From Chaetoceros tenuissimus (Eukaryota > Bacillariophyta > Thalassiosirophyceae > Chaetocerotales > Chaetocerotaceae): a stretch of 64,000 nucleotides of DNA. Shown here piece by piece: positions 21,082 to 35,498 of the stretch; within the stretch, counting starts at the first letter, position 1; each line of letters opens with the position of its first letter. The position numbers and the translations under genes are program-made. The notes beneath the pieces are model-generated. The model did not search any database. It saw only the letters and a program-made list of their open reading frames with translations, and was not told where the DNA came from. The stretch spans positions 3,472,001 through 3,536,000 of the forward strand of contig BLLK01000047.1 of NCBI GenBank assembly GCA_021927905.1. The letters run 5' to 3'.

Positions 21082-22512
21082 TTATGATAATTGAATCTCT
21101 CTTGCTCCAACACCAGGAGAAGATTCAAAGCAAGGGCATAAGTTGTCATACTTTGCTGCATATTCTTTTTTCAAATGCTCACATAGATCCTTTACTCTTG
21201 ATTTATCAACTAAAGTCACAGTGCAGCCGCCAAAGCCTCCACCAGTCAATCTGGATCCATAAACACCTTCAAACTTTTGGGCCGTTTCTACTAGAAAATC
21301 GATCTCATCGCAGCTTACTTCATAGTCACTTCGCATTGATTCATGTGATTCATTCATTAAAGCTCCGAATGATTTCCAATCTCCAGATGTCAGAGCTTTC
21401 TTTGCATCAAGAGTACGTTTATTTTCAGTAACGACATGCTTTGCTCTTTTGTAAATCAAATCATCCATGAGAGCTGGTCCTTCATCTTTTCGCTTCTTGT
21501 GTGCTTGTTCTACATCTTCCAAGGTAGCATCTCTCAATGTTTTTATCCTGTCACCACATACGGATTGAAGAATTTTGGTAGCTTCGGCGCATTGCTTTAC
21601 TCTGACTGGATATTCCCCACCACCAATACTATGTTTTACATTTGAATTGCAAATTACAAAAACAGGCTTCTCATCACCAGTATCTGCCATTCTAACGCTT
21701 TCAAAGTCTAGACTTCTACAATCAATCAATATAGCATTATCTTTGGATGCACAACAACTGACGTATTGGTCCATGATTCCACAAGGTGAATTGCAAAAGT
21801 TGTTTTCTGCACTTTGACAACGAAGAGCTTTATCCTTTTTCTCCCCTAGGTCAAAATTTGGAAATTCCTTTTTGATTGCTACCTCGAGAAAAGTAGCAAC
21901 AGCAACTTCCAACGCAGCAGAGGAAGAAAGCCCAGAACCCAAAGGCACATCACCACAAATGGAGATTTCCATGTTGATTGCAGTCTTTTCTGGAAGCAAT
22001 TTTATGTACTCATAAACAACCCCAGCTACATAATTAGACCATGAATCTTTATCATCATTTGGTAATGGTTTCATATCTCTACAAGACTTGAATGAAATAG
22101 TTTTTGGTGCATCACTATTGACACTAATTATTTTGCATTCCCCTTCATTCTCTTTTACAATGGAACAGGTTCCCACACAAGCAGTTGAGAATGCAATGCC
22201 AATCGGGAACACATATCCCAGAGTGTAGTCTGTATGCTCCCCAATCAAGTTGACTCTTCCAGGTGCCACAGCACAGGATATATCTGATGAATTTTCAAAA
22301 GTATCATCGTAGAGCTTTTTCGCCTGTTCTACAAGAGATTGGATAGATGGCGCTTCATCAGAGAGATGATATGTCTCCTCTCCAGTGGGTTGACTTGATA
22401 GCTTCATAGTTCTAGAAAAGGGTTTGCTATCGTGAAATGAAGATGAGAAGGCACGCGATTGAGGAGGTGCAACAAGTATGCACCATAGAAGATTCAGTAT
22501 CCAGCCTTTCAT
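21082..22512 (-). CDS. GALK: Galactokinase (GHMP kinase)
   Basis: Galactokinase phosphorylates alpha-D-galactose at C1 with ATP, the entry step of the Leloir pathway. From the ATG at 22512 the protein has 476 residues. The family signature GRVNLIGEHTDY is at about 85-96, the GHMP ATP loop PLGSGLSSSAAL at about 190-201, and the C-terminal GHMP motif GSRLTGGGFGGCTV near the end, so it looks active. I chose this ATG because it opens with a hydrophobic leader (MKGWILNLLWCILVAPPQSRAF); the frame extends 74 codons further upstream with no conserved sequence. The leader suggests entry to the secretory route or, with the A-F junction, the plastid, which is unusual for a normally cytosolic enzyme. Confidence 0.93.
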   Translation of the reverse strand: MKGWILNLLWCILVAPPQSRAFSSSFHDSKPFSRTMKLSSQPTGEETYHLSDEAPSIQSLVEQAKKLYDDTFENSSDISCAVAPGRVNLIGEHTDYTLGYVFPIGIAFSTACVGTCSIVKENEGECKIISVNSDAPKTISFKSCRDMKPLPNDDKDSWSNYVAGVVYEYIKLLPEKTAINMEISICGDVPLGSGLSSSAALEVAVATFLEVAIKKEFPNFDLGEKKDKALRCQSAENNFCNSPCGIMDQYVSCCASKDNAILIDCRSLDFESVRMADTGDEKPVFVICNSNVKHSIGGGEYPVRVKQCAEATKILQSVCGDRIKTLRDATLEDVEQAHKKRKDEGPALMDDLIYKRAKHVVTENKRTLDAKKALTSGDWKSFGALMNESHESMRSDYEVSCDEIDFLVETAQKFEGVYGSRLTGGGFGGCTVTLVDKSRVKDLCEHLKKEYAAKYDNLCPCFESSPGVGAREIQLS

Positions 22513-22905
22513 GATATCTTCATAAAGTTCGATGAGGTGGAGAGAAGAATTATTATGAAAATTCTGAGAACAAAATTGCCTTTGTGTGGTCTGTGTGACT
22601 TCAGATTGGTATCCTTCGGATCCTACCGGGTGTCTTTTCTTCAACATACTAAAAAAGCTGCTGCAAATGTCTTTTTCGGTCATTTCGGCTTTTCTTTTTT
22701 CCTGAAATTTGCTCATTTTTCTTTCGACTTTCACTTCTTCTATTTGTACGGCTGTTGGTGCCGAAAGGCAAATGCAATTACTTCATTCACAACCATTGTT
22801 TGTGATGTCAAAGGATCTTGGCTCATAAGTCAGTCGCAGAGCAGCATACTCAGTATCTCCATCGAAATAGAGAATCATTTCTTGTTGCTTTTCCATTCAT
22901 CTTTC
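22513..22905. promoter_or_regulatory. Bidirectional promoter region
   Basis: This 393-bp stretch lies between the divergent starts of galactokinase (22512, minus) and the membrane propeller protein (22906, plus). Long open frames cross it on both strands but carry no conserved residues. Shared regulation is possible, since both neighbours have carbohydrate themes. Confidence 0.45.
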
Positions 22906-25650: not shown

Positions 25651-28600
25651 CTATGAACTCTTGTGGGTATTTTGCCATGAATGAGTAGCGGCCCCCTTCT
25701 TCTCTTTGACCCTAAGCCACTCGTTATCATAGTAAGATTCTACTTTTTCTTCCAAAGATGGCAGGTTATGGAGCTGGTCCAGAAATTGCTGAGAAGAATT
25801 CAAACCAACATACTTTTCGAGGCTTGAAAGCATAGACCGAAGCGCATTCAACAACTCATGGAAACAATTATACAGAGAAATTGCTGTACCGTCATTTTCC
25901 TCGAAGAATATCATTACTCTCCTCAAAATGTTTTTCCATTCGCGAAGTAGTTTCATGTCATTGGTTTTAATTGTTTTAATGCAATAAGTGAGATACCAGA
26001 CCAACTCCGTCTCTTCATTTCCATGATTATCTTTGATTTCATGACATGCAGAAACTAATGCATCACAATTTGAGAGCATTTTTGCAACTTTAGGAGAAGC
26101 AAGCATTCTCTCAAAATCCTCATGAAAGCAGTTGATGTCATCTTTGTTCTTTTCAAATGGCACTGGTAGGTAATGGCAGATACTATAATTATTCCCGAAA
26201 GAATCAGAAGAATTTTGAGATACTTCCGTCGTATGCTTATCTGGTGATTCGCCTCCAGTCGAGTATTGGATGTTGATGACAGCTCTCGTGTATTTCATTG
26301 CTTTGTTTACTGCCGATGTCCACACGCTATTTAAATGAGAAAATACCATTCTTCTATGCGCCTGAAACATCATCTGTAACTTCATAGGAGAGATAACCTC
26401 GTCATGAATTTTCCCAGCAACATGTAACGCGTCCAAGCTATACTCCATTGCCATTGTATTTTCAACTTCAACAACGGAGAACAACAAACTGCACCAGGAT
26501 TTGAAAACGCCATCCATGTTCGTTGTTTTTTCCCCATCCAAAATCAGAAGTGGTATGGGAGAAAATGAAGGCATCTTCAACTTTCCTACCAAAAGAGTTG
26601 CTAATTTTGCATTCAATCCTTGTGATCGATGATGCCGCACTGCTTCCCAAGCTGTCGTTGCATCCATCCCATAATACGACTGAAGAATACGTGTTCCTCC
26701 TGGATGAACAAACGAAGCTACATCATACACTTTGTCATTTATTGCCATGTAAAGGCCCTCTGATTCCACAGTCTCAATAACATTCTTGGTTGTCAGCTCT
26801 GAGATAGTGATAAAAGGAAGAGTCTTCGGCGGCTTATCATTAAATGCTTCATAGACAATCCTCTGGTCTGACTGGAGATATTTCGTAAGCCATTTTTGAG
26901 ATGTCTGCTGCATCTTTTCGTTCATGAACGCTTCCAGATTATCACCGTCATCGAAAAGAGAGAAGTCCATAAGTATATCGTCGATAACATCTAGAGTAGA
27001 GTGAATGAAGCTAGCAGATCCACATAGATAACAATATCCATTGTTACCACCAAATTTCTTAGGGTGAAGCATCCTATGAATTTTCTTTCGGAGCTGAATC
27101 TTTCGCATCATCAGATCAGTAATTCTTTCTTTAGGATGACTTTTCATTTCGAATTGACCATCACTAAAGACCGGCCAACTATTCTCACGAGTGACAGCTA
27201 CAATTACCTCAATGTCTAGAGAGCTACTTCTCAATTTTTCCTCAATTTCCTTCAAAATGTACTTTCCTTCCTTCAGATATGGAATAGACCAAATAAGCAA
27301 TATTGGAGCCTGTGAATGATCAGCAATGCGTTGTTCCAAGTAACCAAGGAATGGAGAGATACCCGAACCTAAGAGAGAAATATGAGATGCATAGTTTACG
27401 CTTGCCTTTTGATAGTGTCATTCCCATAAGGTACTTACCTGCAGCAATCATGATGATTGGCTGTGATGAAGAAGGGGCATGGAATGAAACATTGGTGTTT
27501 ATGGAAAACATGAGATCAGAATTTGTCATGTCTGTCAAATAGTTTGAAGTGACTCCCTTCATAGTTTTCTTTTCTCTTTTACCCATGAGATCATTTACAA
27601 CAAAACGAACAACAGAATTCCTCCTTATCATTTTTCTTTTCTTCAAGGCTTTGGATTTCCATTTGCTGAAATATTTTGAAGCAAGAGCTGTAGCTCTTTC
27701 TGAGCCCATTCTAGTTGTCATTGATTTGATGTCTTTTTGTACAGCATACTTTTCATAGCTCAGATTTGCAACGACAAGCTTAAGTACCATTTTCTTTTCA
27801 TTTTTTGCATTTGCGATAGAATATTGCCTTTGCTTGATTGGTCTCAGTATATCCAGCACATTACAGTTTGTTGCTGCTAAACTTGTTAGGATTGGATACA
27901 CCTTATCTTCAAAAATTTCCAGAGAAATTACTGGATCGTCGAAGATAGGAATATCTTTGACTCCCATTACCATAAGCATTCTAGCAACTGAATGTGCCAA
28001 AGGGGGATCTTCATTATTAGATTTCAGTAAGTTGTAATACATGGTAGGATCATCTTTCAGAAGCAGATCAGGGATATTTCCATCTCTCCCTACTCCAAGA
28101 GTGTCTAGACCTCGAATAAAACTAATATAACCAAGTAACTCAGGCACGTCAAAGAATGAATCAGGCTTAACATGGTAAGCAACATCAGGGCAGTATCTTG
28201 TGAAGTACATGAATGTTTCCTTAGGTAGAGGTGATAAAGATGCAAAGCGAAGAATGTCTCTCAACTTTGCTTGCAATGGTTTCTTGCCTCTTTTCATTCC
28301 TAGTTGAAGGAACTTCTTCAGATGCTTACGCCATTCTTCCGACAATGGAATCAATTCGTCTCCTGATGCATTCAAACGTTCAATGGTCCTTGACACTATC
28401 TCATCAGAGTTTGAGGGCCATACTGAAACAGTATCACCTGGTTTCCAATCAAAGGCGTCATGTGGAAGCTGATATAATAAAGTTTTTATGTTTCCTTCAC
28501 CTTCAGCTTTCTGTAGACTAGCCAATGGCAACTTGAGTGTGGAATTCTTTGCCACCAGTCTCTCCTCGCGAGATCTATCTAGCATATCCATAATTTTGTC

Positions 28601-30139
28601 CCACATGCGGTCAGCGAATCCGCCTTTGAATCCACCCAAAGTTTCTTCCCTTCCAGTTTTAAACGCGAGCTCAAGAAAGTTGTAGGTCTTTTGGAGATGC
28701 TTTCCTAAGAGTCCATTCCATGATGCATATGTATCTATAGCATGACTCCATGCAGTATGGAGCTCCTCATTGTCACTAGTAGCTACATAAACATGAATCG
28801 AGGTTGAGGCAATACTATTCAGAGCTCCAATCCATGTCTCAGGGAAAAAAGAACGAGCTCCCACAGCATCTTTGCCAAGAGTAGACGCGTAAAGACCTCT
28901 CGAGAAAAATACATCAAGACAGTGGAAAAATGGAGTGCCTAACCCCGATGGACTTGGCATGCCTTTGTTGAAGCTGACACCTACTGGAGCGACAGTCTTT
29001 GCCCAAACAAGAGGTTCAATTCCTGTGTCAGCATTTGGATCAGGAATGATTTTCATAAATGCCACTTGAATATTTTGAACACACTTTCCAATGTCATGTA
29101 GAACACGAAACATTGTTTCATCGTCACCACGCTGTACTGCATCTTGAGCAAGACACATAAGTGACAGTAACGGGGCAGCAGCTTTCGCCATCTCACAGAA
29201 AGCAAGATGAAATACAATCTCCGCCTTATTTCCCCACATTGATTGCAACATGTTTAAATTTCCAATTTGAAATTGTTCTTCCTGCGCATTAAATGTCTCC
29301 CCACTACTTAAACTGATATTGTCTTTGTATGAGAAATTATAAAGTTGCACGTCTTCACCAGACAAGTACGATCCCTTTCTTCCTAGGCGGGAGTTCACTG
29401 TATCCCATGGCTCCTTCAAAGATGGAGGCAATTCTTTTGGTTCATTTGGGCCGCAGTACCAATAAGCATGAGATGCGAGTCCAAGGATGAGGGCAGCCCT
29501 AAACAAATATCTATCTTCAAGATCCTCTTGTTTGGCCGAAAGTAAAGGCAATTCATTCTCAATATATGGTCTGAGTGTCAAATCAGATACCATGGTATTC
29601 AAATTGGCTCCAAGTTCATCCCATAAAATATGAGTATCAGGAAGTGAATGTTCGGGGTAGAGCATTGGTAAAAATCCATTCCGAAAAGAGAGAAATCCTC
29701 TATTTTCATTACCCTTCTGAATTGTTTCCTCTTCTACTTCTCGAATGTAACGAGCTAAAGGAACGTCCAAACATCTCACATTTTCATCATCAACACTTTC
29801 ATACAGATGCAATGTACGTTTCAAAGAGCTGTCTTTAGACGATGAATCTGAAACAAATGTGGACAGGGTTGTATCAAGATTGTGTAGATTAAAATGTTCT
29901 TTCTCTACTTTCAACAAATCTTCTGGCAGTAGCTTACTTTTCACGAGACTGCGAGTACTTGCAACTTTACTACGCAGTTTGGAAATCTTTTCCTCTTGTC
30001 TCTTCTTTTCATTCTTTAAAATCTGAATACTTGACATACTCATGGAAGAACTAAAAGTTCTCACACTGTCATCATCATCTGTTTGTTCATGACGAGAAAC
30101 ATTTACATAGGCACTAGCGTTGCTGGTTGACTCGCTCAT
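25651..30139 (-). CDS. IDO-like dioxygenase / P450-reductase-type FAD-NADPH / cytochrome b5 fusion
   Basis: Two exons (30139-27439 and 27368-25651) flank a 70-bp phase-1 intron and give 1,472 residues. After a coiled-coil N-terminus, residues about 120-530 resemble indoleamine 2,3-dioxygenase: LARYIREVE, SPSGLGTPFFHCLDV and HLQKTYNFLELAF, whose His (about 481) matches the proximal haem ligand, with a GGFKGGF loop after it. Residues about 535-1035 are a P450-reductase-type module: the FAD motif RQYS (771-774), GVTSNYL (about 862), the NADPH motif AAGSGISPFLGY completed only by splicing, and YCYLCGS near 1012. Residues about 1087-1165 are cytochrome b5 with the haem-binding HPGG (about 1122-1125) and a second His pair near 1146. 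About 300 helical residues follow. No FMN flavodoxin domain is present. The likely role is NADPH-driven tryptophan or indole oxygenation in the cytosol. Confidence 0.8.
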
Positions 30140-33110: not shown

Positions 33111-34925
33111 CTAGACGTAGCATGGGAATGATAATATTTCAGCAACCCATGGCTCTAGCAAGGCCCTTGTTGTGAAGAAGAAAATGACTCCAAGAAAGAT
33201 ACTGATTGGAAGTGCTGGAAGCGCAGCGTGATAGACCGATAATAATACCAAAGTTCCACCAAGCCCAAACAAAATTACAAGCATACAAGCTGCAAAAGTG
33301 GTAAAACTATTGAGTGCTGCTTTTGCCACAAGGACAGAATAGAAGATAAAATCTCCAAGCCCCAACTTGATTGTATTCGACATGGGAGCACTAGATGTAG
33401 CTTCTTGTTCACCACGCATTTCTTCAAATACTTTTCCTTCTTCATTCATGACCAAAACTCGTTTAATCTCGTTGTTGCGGTCGAGGACAATGTAGCGAGG
33501 TAGTACAGATCCATCTCTACTATTCCATCTTGGTCCTGTGGAAGCCCCGGAGTCAGGATTGTCGACTAAAATTCGACCCCCATTTACGGGAAAGTGAACA
33601 GTAACTTCGGTACGCAATTCCGAGGGTGTATATTGCGGTTTTACAGCTGCATTATCTCTTGGTCGATATTTATCCAATACAAACTGTGGACAGCCTTCTC
33701 TTGCAACTTGTAATTTATATATTTTGACGATTGCAAACGGCAATGTTACGGATGGTTGCTCAGAAGGGTAATTCCGTTCATCAACTCCATGATTGGTATT
33801 CGATTGAAAAGAGCCAGTCATTCTCGATGCAAATTGTCTCGATTCCGCCATTGTAGGAGGATGCTCTTGCATTCTGTTTGAATCATCTTCTTGACGAGAT
33901 GAAGTTGTTGGAGGGTTACTCATCGAAGAATCTGTTCTTTTGTCATTCCTATTCTCTGTGGCATTGTTGTTTGAATTGTCAGGTACTTCATTACTCGCAC
34001 CATTCTCGTTTGCACTTTGACGTCTATCATTACTATTTTGGTTGTTTTGCCTAGATGCATTTCCACCTCTTCCTGGTCGATCCACACCTTGTGGCAATCT
34101 AGCTTCGTAAAGTAATCCAGGCATTTCTGGAGAACCTTCCTTCTGCATAAGATTCACCAAAAATCGAAGTGGTCCGCATGGAGTAAGGACGGCACATAAA
34201 TCATACAATGCCAATAGTACCAATAGCATCCATGCAGTCCAATCATTGAAGAAACTCAGTTGCCAAGCTAAAATCGATGATGTAAAAATGAGATACATCT
34301 GAGTGATGTAACTTGGAATTCCTTTCCCGTAGAAAATTGATATGGTACCAACTGCTGCGAAATTTACCAACAAGAAATAAAAGGTAATTTGATCTATAAC
34401 TACCCCATAGCGTTCAATAAAAGTCTGAAACATGACACCGCCCAGCAGACCAAGCAAGGCAGCAGAGGAAAAGATCATGTACCCCACTAAAAGTTTCATA
34501 CACCTGTATTTGTACAAGAGCACAATTAAGAATGTAGCTGCTGCAATCACACTGATGATGATGAGACCATTGACTAAACTGTAGCCAAAATTTTGTGCAT
34601 TGGTATTTTCAGAATTAGATACGTCAAATACAGTATAGAAGGAGGAGACTTCTTGTCCTTGTGTCGACTGCGATTGAATGTATGTGACTGCTAGGGCAGA
34701 GAGTATCATGGTGATTGACACCGGAGTAGAGATTGCAAAGTAAGATGCGAAACCATATTTCAATTCTTCAAAACTAATTGCTTCGTTCTGGCTTTCTTGG
34801 TTTTGATTGTTATTTTGTTCTACTCCAAACACACTTGGAAGATTGTCTTGAGTGTTGCTAGGGTTGGCAGATGTTGTCTCATTTTGGCTTGGAAGCGTAG
34901 CTTGTGCCCCCTCTTGAGATCCCAT
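33111..34925 (-). CDS. PSEN: Presenilin (gamma-secretase-type intramembrane aspartyl protease)
   Basis: The 604-residue protein has the three presenilin hallmarks: YDLCAVL with catalytic Asp at about 242 in TM6, GLGDFIFYSVL with catalytic Asp at about 525 in TM7, and PAL at about 570-572 in TM9. The sequence after the first site (TPCGPLRFLV) also matches. Nine hydrophobic segments fit the fold. A Gln/Asn-rich cytosolic N-terminus and a long polar loop of about 250 residues between TM6 and TM7, with Arg/Asn/Ser low complexity, make it longer than animal presenilins (~460). Both catalytic residues are intact. It would act in ER, Golgi or endosomal membranes on single-pass substrates. The gene is intronless. 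Confidence 0.95.
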   Translation of the reverse strand: MGSQEGAQATLPSQNETTSANPSNTQDNLPSVFGVEQNNNQNQESQNEAISFEELKYGFASYFAISTPVSITMILSALAVTYIQSQSTQGQEVSSFYTVFDVSNSENTNAQNFGYSLVNGLIIISVIAAATFLIVLLYKYRCMKLLVGYMIFSSAALLGLLGGVMFQTFIERYGVVIDQITFYFLLVNFAAVGTISIFYGKGIPSYITQMYLIFTSSILAWQLSFFNDWTAWMLLVLLALYDLCAVLTPCGPLRFLVNLMQKEGSPEMPGLLYEARLPQGVDRPGRGGNASRQNNQNSNDRRQSANENGASNEVPDNSNNNATENRNDKRTDSSMSNPPTTSSRQEDDSNRMQEHPPTMAESRQFASRMTGSFQSNTNHGVDERNYPSEQPSVTLPFAIVKIYKLQVAREGCPQFVLDKYRPRDNAAVKPQYTPSELRTEVTVHFPVNGGRILVDNPDSGASTGPRWNSRDGSVLPRYIVLDRNNEIKRVLVMNEEGKVFEEMRGEQEATSSAPMSNTIKLGLGDFIFYSVLVAKAALNSFTTFAACMLVILFGLGGTLVLLSVYHAALPALPISIFLGVIFFFTTRALLEPWVAEILSFPCYV

Positions 34926-35498
34926 GACAAATAGAAGCTGTTATAGATTGAACTTTGTTCTTTTAACAGTGAAACAAAATGTAACTGTCTACTTCAGGTA
35001 CATAATAGCAGTACTTGAAGTGTTGATTGTTTCGTGTTTTACTCCGTTCTCCGTTCGCCGTTCGTCCAATAACGGCCAAAATTTTGGTGAATGACATTGT
35101 ATTGATACTTGTCCTATGAGCTAAAATATACAGAACTGAAAAGAATTTCTACGTCATTGGATTTCCATGTCTTGCAAAATTCGTGAAGATGCATTTGCTT
35201 TGCATACCGCTTCAAACAGACACTTTCATTGATATCCAAAAGATTACTCATAAGCTGTAAAGTCTAGCTTGAGAACACTGTAGCTGAAATTTCAACGAAT
35301 ATATGAATTGAGTATTATTTATGAATTCAATGTATAAACTGTTTAAATTAGTAATGATGTGGTAGAATAGAGATCACATGAGTTGCATATACTCGTATGA
35401 AAAAATAAATGATAATAAGGCGCTAGTACCTTTACTACAATGTCTCTGCTCAGAAGCTCCCCTTCCACCGATGTATATACTCTGAAATCTATTTTCCA
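34926..35498. other. Intergenic region
   Basis: This 573-bp AT-rich region lies upstream of presenilin (minus) and downstream of the DNAJC9 gene (minus). A short direct repeat of a CCGTTC unit occurs near 35043-35065. I see no gene or RNA in it. Confidence 0.45.

Follow-up and report, generated by a model that had tools for sequence, protein, structure and literature searches.

What reaction does a protein carry out that joins a dioxygenase-type haem domain to its own electron supply in a single chain? The question is raised by a gene of the diatom Chaetoceros tenuissimus in a stretch of 64,000 nucleotides (contig BLLK01000047.1, positions 3,472,001 to 3,536,000; the window), which encodes a haem domain of the indoleamine 2,3-dioxygenase (IDO) fold, an FAD/NADPH module of the P450-reductase type and a cytochrome b5 domain. 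We find that the protein belongs to a family that this diatom, at least, shares with about nine phylum-level groups of bacteria. We place a probability of roughly 0.55 on the family being self-sufficient, NADPH-driven, His-ligated haem aromatic oxygenases that would consume electrons and use an indole or aryl metabolite as substrate. An electron-consuming reaction appears most likely because the supply is dedicated and because the elements by which IDO recognizes tryptophan are, by alignment, altered in the fusion family.

Domain architecture and distribution of the fusion family

Pfam searches of the window protein returned IDO (PF01231) at 76.6 bits against a curated cut-off of 26, with positions 8-210 of the 412-position profile aligned, Cyt-b5 at 47.3 bits and NAD_binding_1 at 26.4 bits, while FAD_binding_1 reached 29.2 bits, slightly under its cut-off of 32.3. 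The original prediction, made from the DNA letters, of one gene with three cofactor modules is borne out by these matches, by a paralogue and by bacterial relatives, and the IDO profile search that it had set as its own check on residues 120-530 found the domain. The cofactor motifs were also correctly read as intact, with HLQ, RQYS, GSGISPF and HPGG at residues 481, 771, 901 and 1122. As predicted, an FMN domain is lacking: no flavodoxin domain was found among the Pfam matches of the window protein or of 31 long relatives, and a flavodoxin-like pattern occurs in 0/69 long family proteins. The reductase module of a 1086-residue Chitinophaga relative gave 1ddg as its best fold match (E 3.9e-17). 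By sequence family, fold and proximal histidine (H481) the window protein belongs with IDO, and its IDO/TDO-type fold with a predicted His-ligated haem places it in the haem-dependent aromatic oxygenase superfamily.

In order to identify relatives, bacterial and archaeal genomes, one per species, were scanned with the peptide patterns VWAKTVAP and GHENxGFLS, so that relatives without both are missed. Among 87 candidate stretches, 57 encode relatives, located at 54 bacterial loci. By record title these are 14 Chloroflexota, 11 Bacteroidota, 11 Actinomycetota, 6 Myxococcota, 4 Pseudomonadota, 3 Cyanobacteria, 2 Oligoflexia, 2 Poribacteria and 1 Sericytochromatia; many loci are metagenome bins, and individual assignments may therefore be wrong. 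These loci exclude an invention restricted to the diatom. The singularity implied for the fusion does not hold; what had been observed is correct and applies more widely. In 40/54 loci a single frame reaches 1000 residues or more, and 5/54 are short or else split or cut, with no frame listed for one of the five. Viral contigs, scanned once, contained four pattern matches, with no relative among them.

A protein search yielded 32 relatives out of 7974 scored candidates, all 32 with the IDO domain and 30 with Cyt-b5; the two that lack b5 are shorter proteins of 943 and 809 residues. When the IDO domain alone served as query in a second search, a further 17 shorter proteins were obtained, of which three are IDO-b5 and several IDO alone. 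The 31 long proteins selected for alignment, five of which entered without their extra N-terminal part, showed IDO in 31, b5 in 31, FAD_binding_1 in 30 and NAD_binding_1 in 29 cases, and HPGG with a second axial histidine pattern is found in 65/69 long family proteins. An EukProt record with a transcript-like name (P0005) encodes a 1457-residue fusion with IDO, FAD and b5 domains, and close relatives are also present in probably eukaryotic records. Two myxobacterial-type proteins (P0008 and P0013) extend about 130 residues further at the C terminus; this part, which had no Pfam match in the scan, resembles a STAS-type domain by eye.

Three fusions are present in the diatom genome. A paralogue (L058; contig C34, about 3.31 Mb) is separated from the window gene by 190 kb of the same contig and lies on the opposite strand, and its product is 91% identical to the window protein over 1467 aligned codons. 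The intron that had been proposed to split the NADPH motif is confirmed inside codon 901; it measures 70 bp, compared with 65 bp at the same site in the paralogue, a difference that is not a multiple of three, and both frames are open. Nonsynonymous and synonymous divergence (dN and dS) between the two genes are 0.047 and 0.200 (dN/dS 0.24), and for the IDO part 0.019 and 0.172. Because the paralogue keeps intron site and open frame at a low dN/dS, both the intron and a function under selection are supported, and the two near-identical copies are under purifying selection. The third fusion (L060:2230-6513, contig C33) is a single frame of 1427 residues with IDO and Cyt-b5 matches, reductase motifs that were seen by eye and missed by Pfam, and a weak EF-hand match below the Pfam cut-offs, which hints at calcium control. 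In a tree of 85 rows, three of them canonical IDOs that served as outgroup, the eight diatom-type rows fall into a single group (support 100/100). This group joins cyanobacterial-Kitasatospora and Anaerolineae proteins at 93/98, below the mark for a firm fork; the third diatom protein sits on a very long branch (6.93) and the canonical stem measures 8.67, and with such long branches only the diatom-type group was drawn from the tree.

The haem pocket and the tryptophan question

The family alignment comprised 82 domains (L-INS-i), with near-identical sequences among its rows; its register against canonical IDOs, which rests on sequence and profile alignment, was the same in L-INS-i and in a profile-profile comparison. 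The canonical segment DPYIFYNRLRP reads DPVVWAKTVAP in the fusion family. At W379, the counterpart of Phe226 in human IDO1, tryptophan is found in 81/82 domains, and the counterpart of Arg231 (position 384) is alanine in 77/82 and glycine in 5/82. In IDO1 this arginine pairs with the tryptophan carboxylate (PMC5700043). No conserved arginine is present in columns 362-395, where any column holds at most 14/80. K381 is lysine in 81/82 domains. The bacterial loci had been located partly by means of this segment, but W379 and K381 also hold in 32/32 proteins from a word search and in 22/22 loci without the exact first pattern (VWAKTVAP). The proximal histidine is kept throughout, whereas the GT[GS]G loop is found in 0/82 family domains compared with 3/3 canonical IDOs, the loop reading TIGGF in 49/82 and TLGGF in 14/82. 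Which residue stands for Thr379 depends on the anchor (Phe504 in L-INS-i; Leu/Ile501, as in SLGGR of MarE, when the glycines are matched; T500 when threonine is), and the choice is unsure. Overall, the fusion is about 21% identical to canonical IDOs (human IDO1 and IDO2, bacterial) and differs from them in the loss of Arg231 and GTGG; the canonical IDOs here are stand-alone proteins, to which the fusion family adds reductase and b5.

These changes bear on the strongest alternative, a self-sufficient tryptophan (indoleamine) 2,3-dioxygenase with N-formylkynurenine as product, in which reductase and b5 would only keep the haem ferrous. The IDO fold and proximal histidine fit such an enzyme, as does the in vitro support of human IDO1 by P450 reductase with or without b5 (PMC13142367). 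In Chitinophaga (L022:7941-17155), 38 bp separate the fusion gene from a trpE-like gene after it, and trpG, trpD, trpC, trpB and trpA come next, an arrangement that keeps tryptophan chemistry in play. Additionally, searching the diatom genome turned up neither a TDO match nor any IDO match beyond the three fusions, which makes the fusions the diatom's only candidates for a tryptophan dioxygenase. Against this stand the loss of the Arg231 counterpart and of GT[GS]G in 82/82 domains and the enzymes already available to the hosts: among 16 genomes chosen from the hosts of the 54 loci, TDO was matched in nine, canonical IDO in three and either in 11. The diatom genome contains NadA, which belongs to the aspartate pathway for making NAD, and a survey places diatoms on that pathway (PMC4217691), so the fusion's product is probably not needed for NAD there; housekeeping degradation of tryptophan for NAD was judged unlikely given NadA and the missing TDO match. 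The same survey describes characterised IDO homologues outside a branch of mammals, fungi and two bacteria as very slow with tryptophan and doubts that homologues outside that branch degrade it (PMC4217691), which would bear on the fusion family if it belongs to that tree. We regard this dioxygenase as unlikely, and the term tryptophan oxygenase in the original prediction stands for fold and proximal ligand, less so for the substrate.

Canonical full-length IDO genes (296-343 bits) occur near the fusion in Chrysosporum, Limnofasciculus and Kitasatospora, adjoining it in the latter two and about 8 kb away in Chrysosporum. All three clusters (L021/L080, L047, L027/L081) share an Amidohydro_3 protein and a 369-residue protein that matched no Pfam family; Chrysosporum and Kitasatospora also have GT90, PhyH and a second Amidohydro_3 in common, the Limnofasciculus contig being cut. 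Pfam assignments were made on the cyanobacterial copies only; L027:11290-12474 gave no Pfam match, most likely because of a wrong frame, and the canonical IDO there was found by another route. A fusion beside a tryptophan-cleaving oxygenase suggests that it would perform another reaction step, and with its canonical IDO, amidohydrolase, GT90 and PhyH the cluster has the look of a metabolic one. In Hormoscilla (L051), GT90 and PhyH are also found, next to a fusion frame that is broken. In high-GC actinobacterial neighbourhoods simple frame calls are unreliable, and little was drawn from them; in Streptomyces coelicoflavus (L041) a short IDO-b5 form is followed by an N-hydroxyarylamine O-acetyltransferase-like gene (132 bits; model cut-off 493).

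Electron supply, candidate reaction and control

On the basis of the domain order, a covalent path from NADPH through FAD and b5 to the IDO-type haem within one chain is plausible. NADPH would hand hydride to FAD, and the b5 haem, in the place of the FMN of diflavin enzymes, would accept single electrons and relay them to the IDO-type haem, which would bind O2. Less surely, the reaction may then consume electrons, by insertion of one oxygen atom or by reductive activation of O2; the substrate would be an indole or aryl metabolite, in place of tryptophan 2,3-dioxygenation. The original prediction had explained the reductase by the need of IDO for ferrous haem. As a full reason this is weakened, since dioxygenation by human IDO needs no electrons beyond the first reduction, in contrast to monooxygenation (PMC12921851), and a dedicated supply is therefore no less in keeping with a reaction that consumes electrons.

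The arrangement can be compared with several known systems. The FAD/NADPH module is shared with diflavin reductases (sulfite reductase flavoprotein, P450 reductase), which carry an FMN domain, whereas the fusion has cytochrome b5 after this module. A haem oxygenase and an NADPH reductase are joined in one chain, as in the fusion, in enzymes of the P450 BM3 type and in nitric oxide synthase. These have a Cys-ligated haem and an FMN carrier, in contrast to the predicted His-ligated IDO fold and b5 carrier of the fusion. The system supporting human IDO1 uses the same kinds of electron carrier as separate proteins (PMC13142367). MarE (PMC12312684) and PrnB (PMC11791213) share with the fusion the IDO/TDO-type superfamily and the His-ligated haem, and indole chemistry is theirs; the accessible parts of these papers describe no fused electron supply. 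Monooxygenation by MarE requires an outside electron donor, and MarE departs from TDO in the region of the GTGG loop (PMC12312684); in the fusion the donor is built in and this loop is altered.

Several points weigh against an electron-consuming oxygenase of this kind. MarE retains the carboxylate arginine (PMC11904535), so the loss of arginine tells of the substrate and not of mono- versus dioxygenation, and MarE without ascorbate favours dioxygenation (PMC12312684). PrnB, a member of this superfamily, yielded no product when b5 and P450 reductase were supplied as separate proteins (PMC11791213). The fused reductase could also serve solely to rescue autoxidised haem. For the pocket, HMMER against IDO structures picks another register for the Arg231 stretch, in which no conserved arginine is found either; K381 could replace the lost arginine; and the third diatom fusion has phenylalanine and valine in place of W379 and K381. 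The reductase need not be attached, since short IDO-b5 and IDO-alone forms exist: nine loci that are actinobacterial by title (L037, L040-L046, L050) have frames of 660-794 residues with HPGG and without reductase motif, Pfam confirming IDO and b5 in L040, and four proteins (P0038, P0040, P0041, P0044) show the IDO domain alone, as fragments or stand-alone forms. Finally, among the 69 long proteins the FAD pattern is missed in six, the NADPH pattern in four and HPGG in four.

A less probable alternative than the dioxygenase is a regulated signalling or redox device, in which the NADPH-dependent haem protein would sense O2 or redox state or make a small signal (superoxide, H2O2 or an NO-like species). 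A CBS-type protein lies directly upstream on the same strand in 17/54 loci (L007-L010, L012-L019, L028, L034, L048, L049, L054; two checked by Pfam). Single members carry further domains in front (FHA in L008, GGACT/AIG2 in L006, PAS in P0006), a PAS-histidine kinase gene ends where the fusion frame of L001 starts, and the weak EF-hand match of the third diatom fusion points the same way. However, the pocket segment is near-invariant, with W379 and K381 in 81/82 domains, no signalling Pfam domain was found in the 26 untrimmed of the 31 scanned proteins, and the canonical-IDO cluster has a metabolic appearance, which makes such a device improbable. A DsbA-like protein precedes the fusion in 11/54 loci, ten of them on the same strand (two checked, one weak).

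The electron-consuming oxygenase can be extended to a wider proposal, which we hold more tentatively. The family may represent an undescribed class of self-sufficient His-haem monooxygenases of the IDO fold, with b5 replacing the FMN domain between FAD and catalytic haem, with a range of about nine bacterial groups plus at least one diatom. Its members would be under varied controls (Ca2+, CBS, FHA, PAS) and, in one cyanobacterial/streptomycete cluster, could act in sequence with canonical IDO on a tryptophan-derived product. An IDO-reductase-b5 fusion is not named among the open-access literature matches listed, by which absence from print is not shown.

The diatom gene in its setting and the meaning of the family

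Table 1. Features of the fusion gene in the window (positions in the window; residues of the spliced product)
Feature	Position	Strand	Remark
Whole gene	25651..30139	minus	two exons; spliced frame of 1472 aa
GT-AG intron, 70 bp	27369..27438	minus	inside codon 901 (G of GSGISPF)
N-terminal extension, residues 1-104	29828..30139	minus	outside IDO domain
IDO-fold haem domain, residues 135-530	28550..29737	minus	
Family signature EPLVWAKTVAP, residues 375-385	28985..29017	minus	aligned to human IDO1 F226...R231 segment
H481 (HLQ)	28697..28699	minus	predicted proximal haem ligand; kept in 82/82 family domains
TLGGF loop, residues 500-504	28628..28642	minus	region of IDO/TDO GTGG motif
FAD-binding and connecting region, residues 531-880	27500..28549	minus	P450-reductase/sulfite-reductase type
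RQYS, residues 771-774	27818..27829	minus	FAD motif
NAD(P)H-binding domain, residues 881-1040	26950..27499	minus	range contains intron
GSGISPF, residues 901-907	27349..27439	minus	NADPH motif, intron-split
Cytochrome b5 domain, residues 1090-1168	26566..26802	minus	
b5 axial histidine candidates, H1122 and H1146 or H1147	26695-26706 (HPGG)	minus	H1122 in HPGG
C-terminal region beyond b5, residues 1185-1460	25690..26517	minus	

The coordinates of the gene and its parts are collected in Table 1. No membrane segment is evident in the whole protein (maximal 19-residue Kyte-Doolittle mean 1.57; threshold 1.6). The positional counterpart of the C-terminal region in the model of the Chitinophaga relative is a helical region (residues 901-1085). 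Five neighbouring frames in the diatom were passed through Pfam and gave one galactokinase, one presenilin and three without match, with no functional link seen; the presenilin (33111-34940; 373.7 bits) and galactokinase (21082-22782) genes lie on the minus strand of the window. Elsewhere in the diatom genome, 11 silicon-transporter matches were found, and contig C17:442278-446357 holds tandem silicon-transporter domain repeats, one repeat match having two stops.

An artefact, whether a false intron that merges two genes or a duplicate in decay, is very improbable: a chance join or wrong intron call is excluded by the 70- and 65-bp introns with frame kept and by intronless bacterial relatives with the same domain order in one frame, to which the dN/dS of 0.24 and the transcript-like record P0005 can be added.

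The fusion family may be an unstudied enzyme family with indole-like compounds as possible substrates. Which reducing system IDO-type haems depend on in the cell is not yet clear (PMC13142367), and the electron donors of MarE (PMC12312684) and PrnB (PMC11791213) are unsettled in the accessible parts of these papers. With a family that has its own NADPH supply, one can test directly whether a haem of the IDO fold changes from dioxygenase to monooxygenase when electron delivery is dedicated to it. The family is also a potential self-sufficient biocatalyst comparable to P450 systems, in which the haem would be His-ligated and b5 would be the carrier, and a pointer to unexplored aromatic metabolism in the diatom and in many bacteria.

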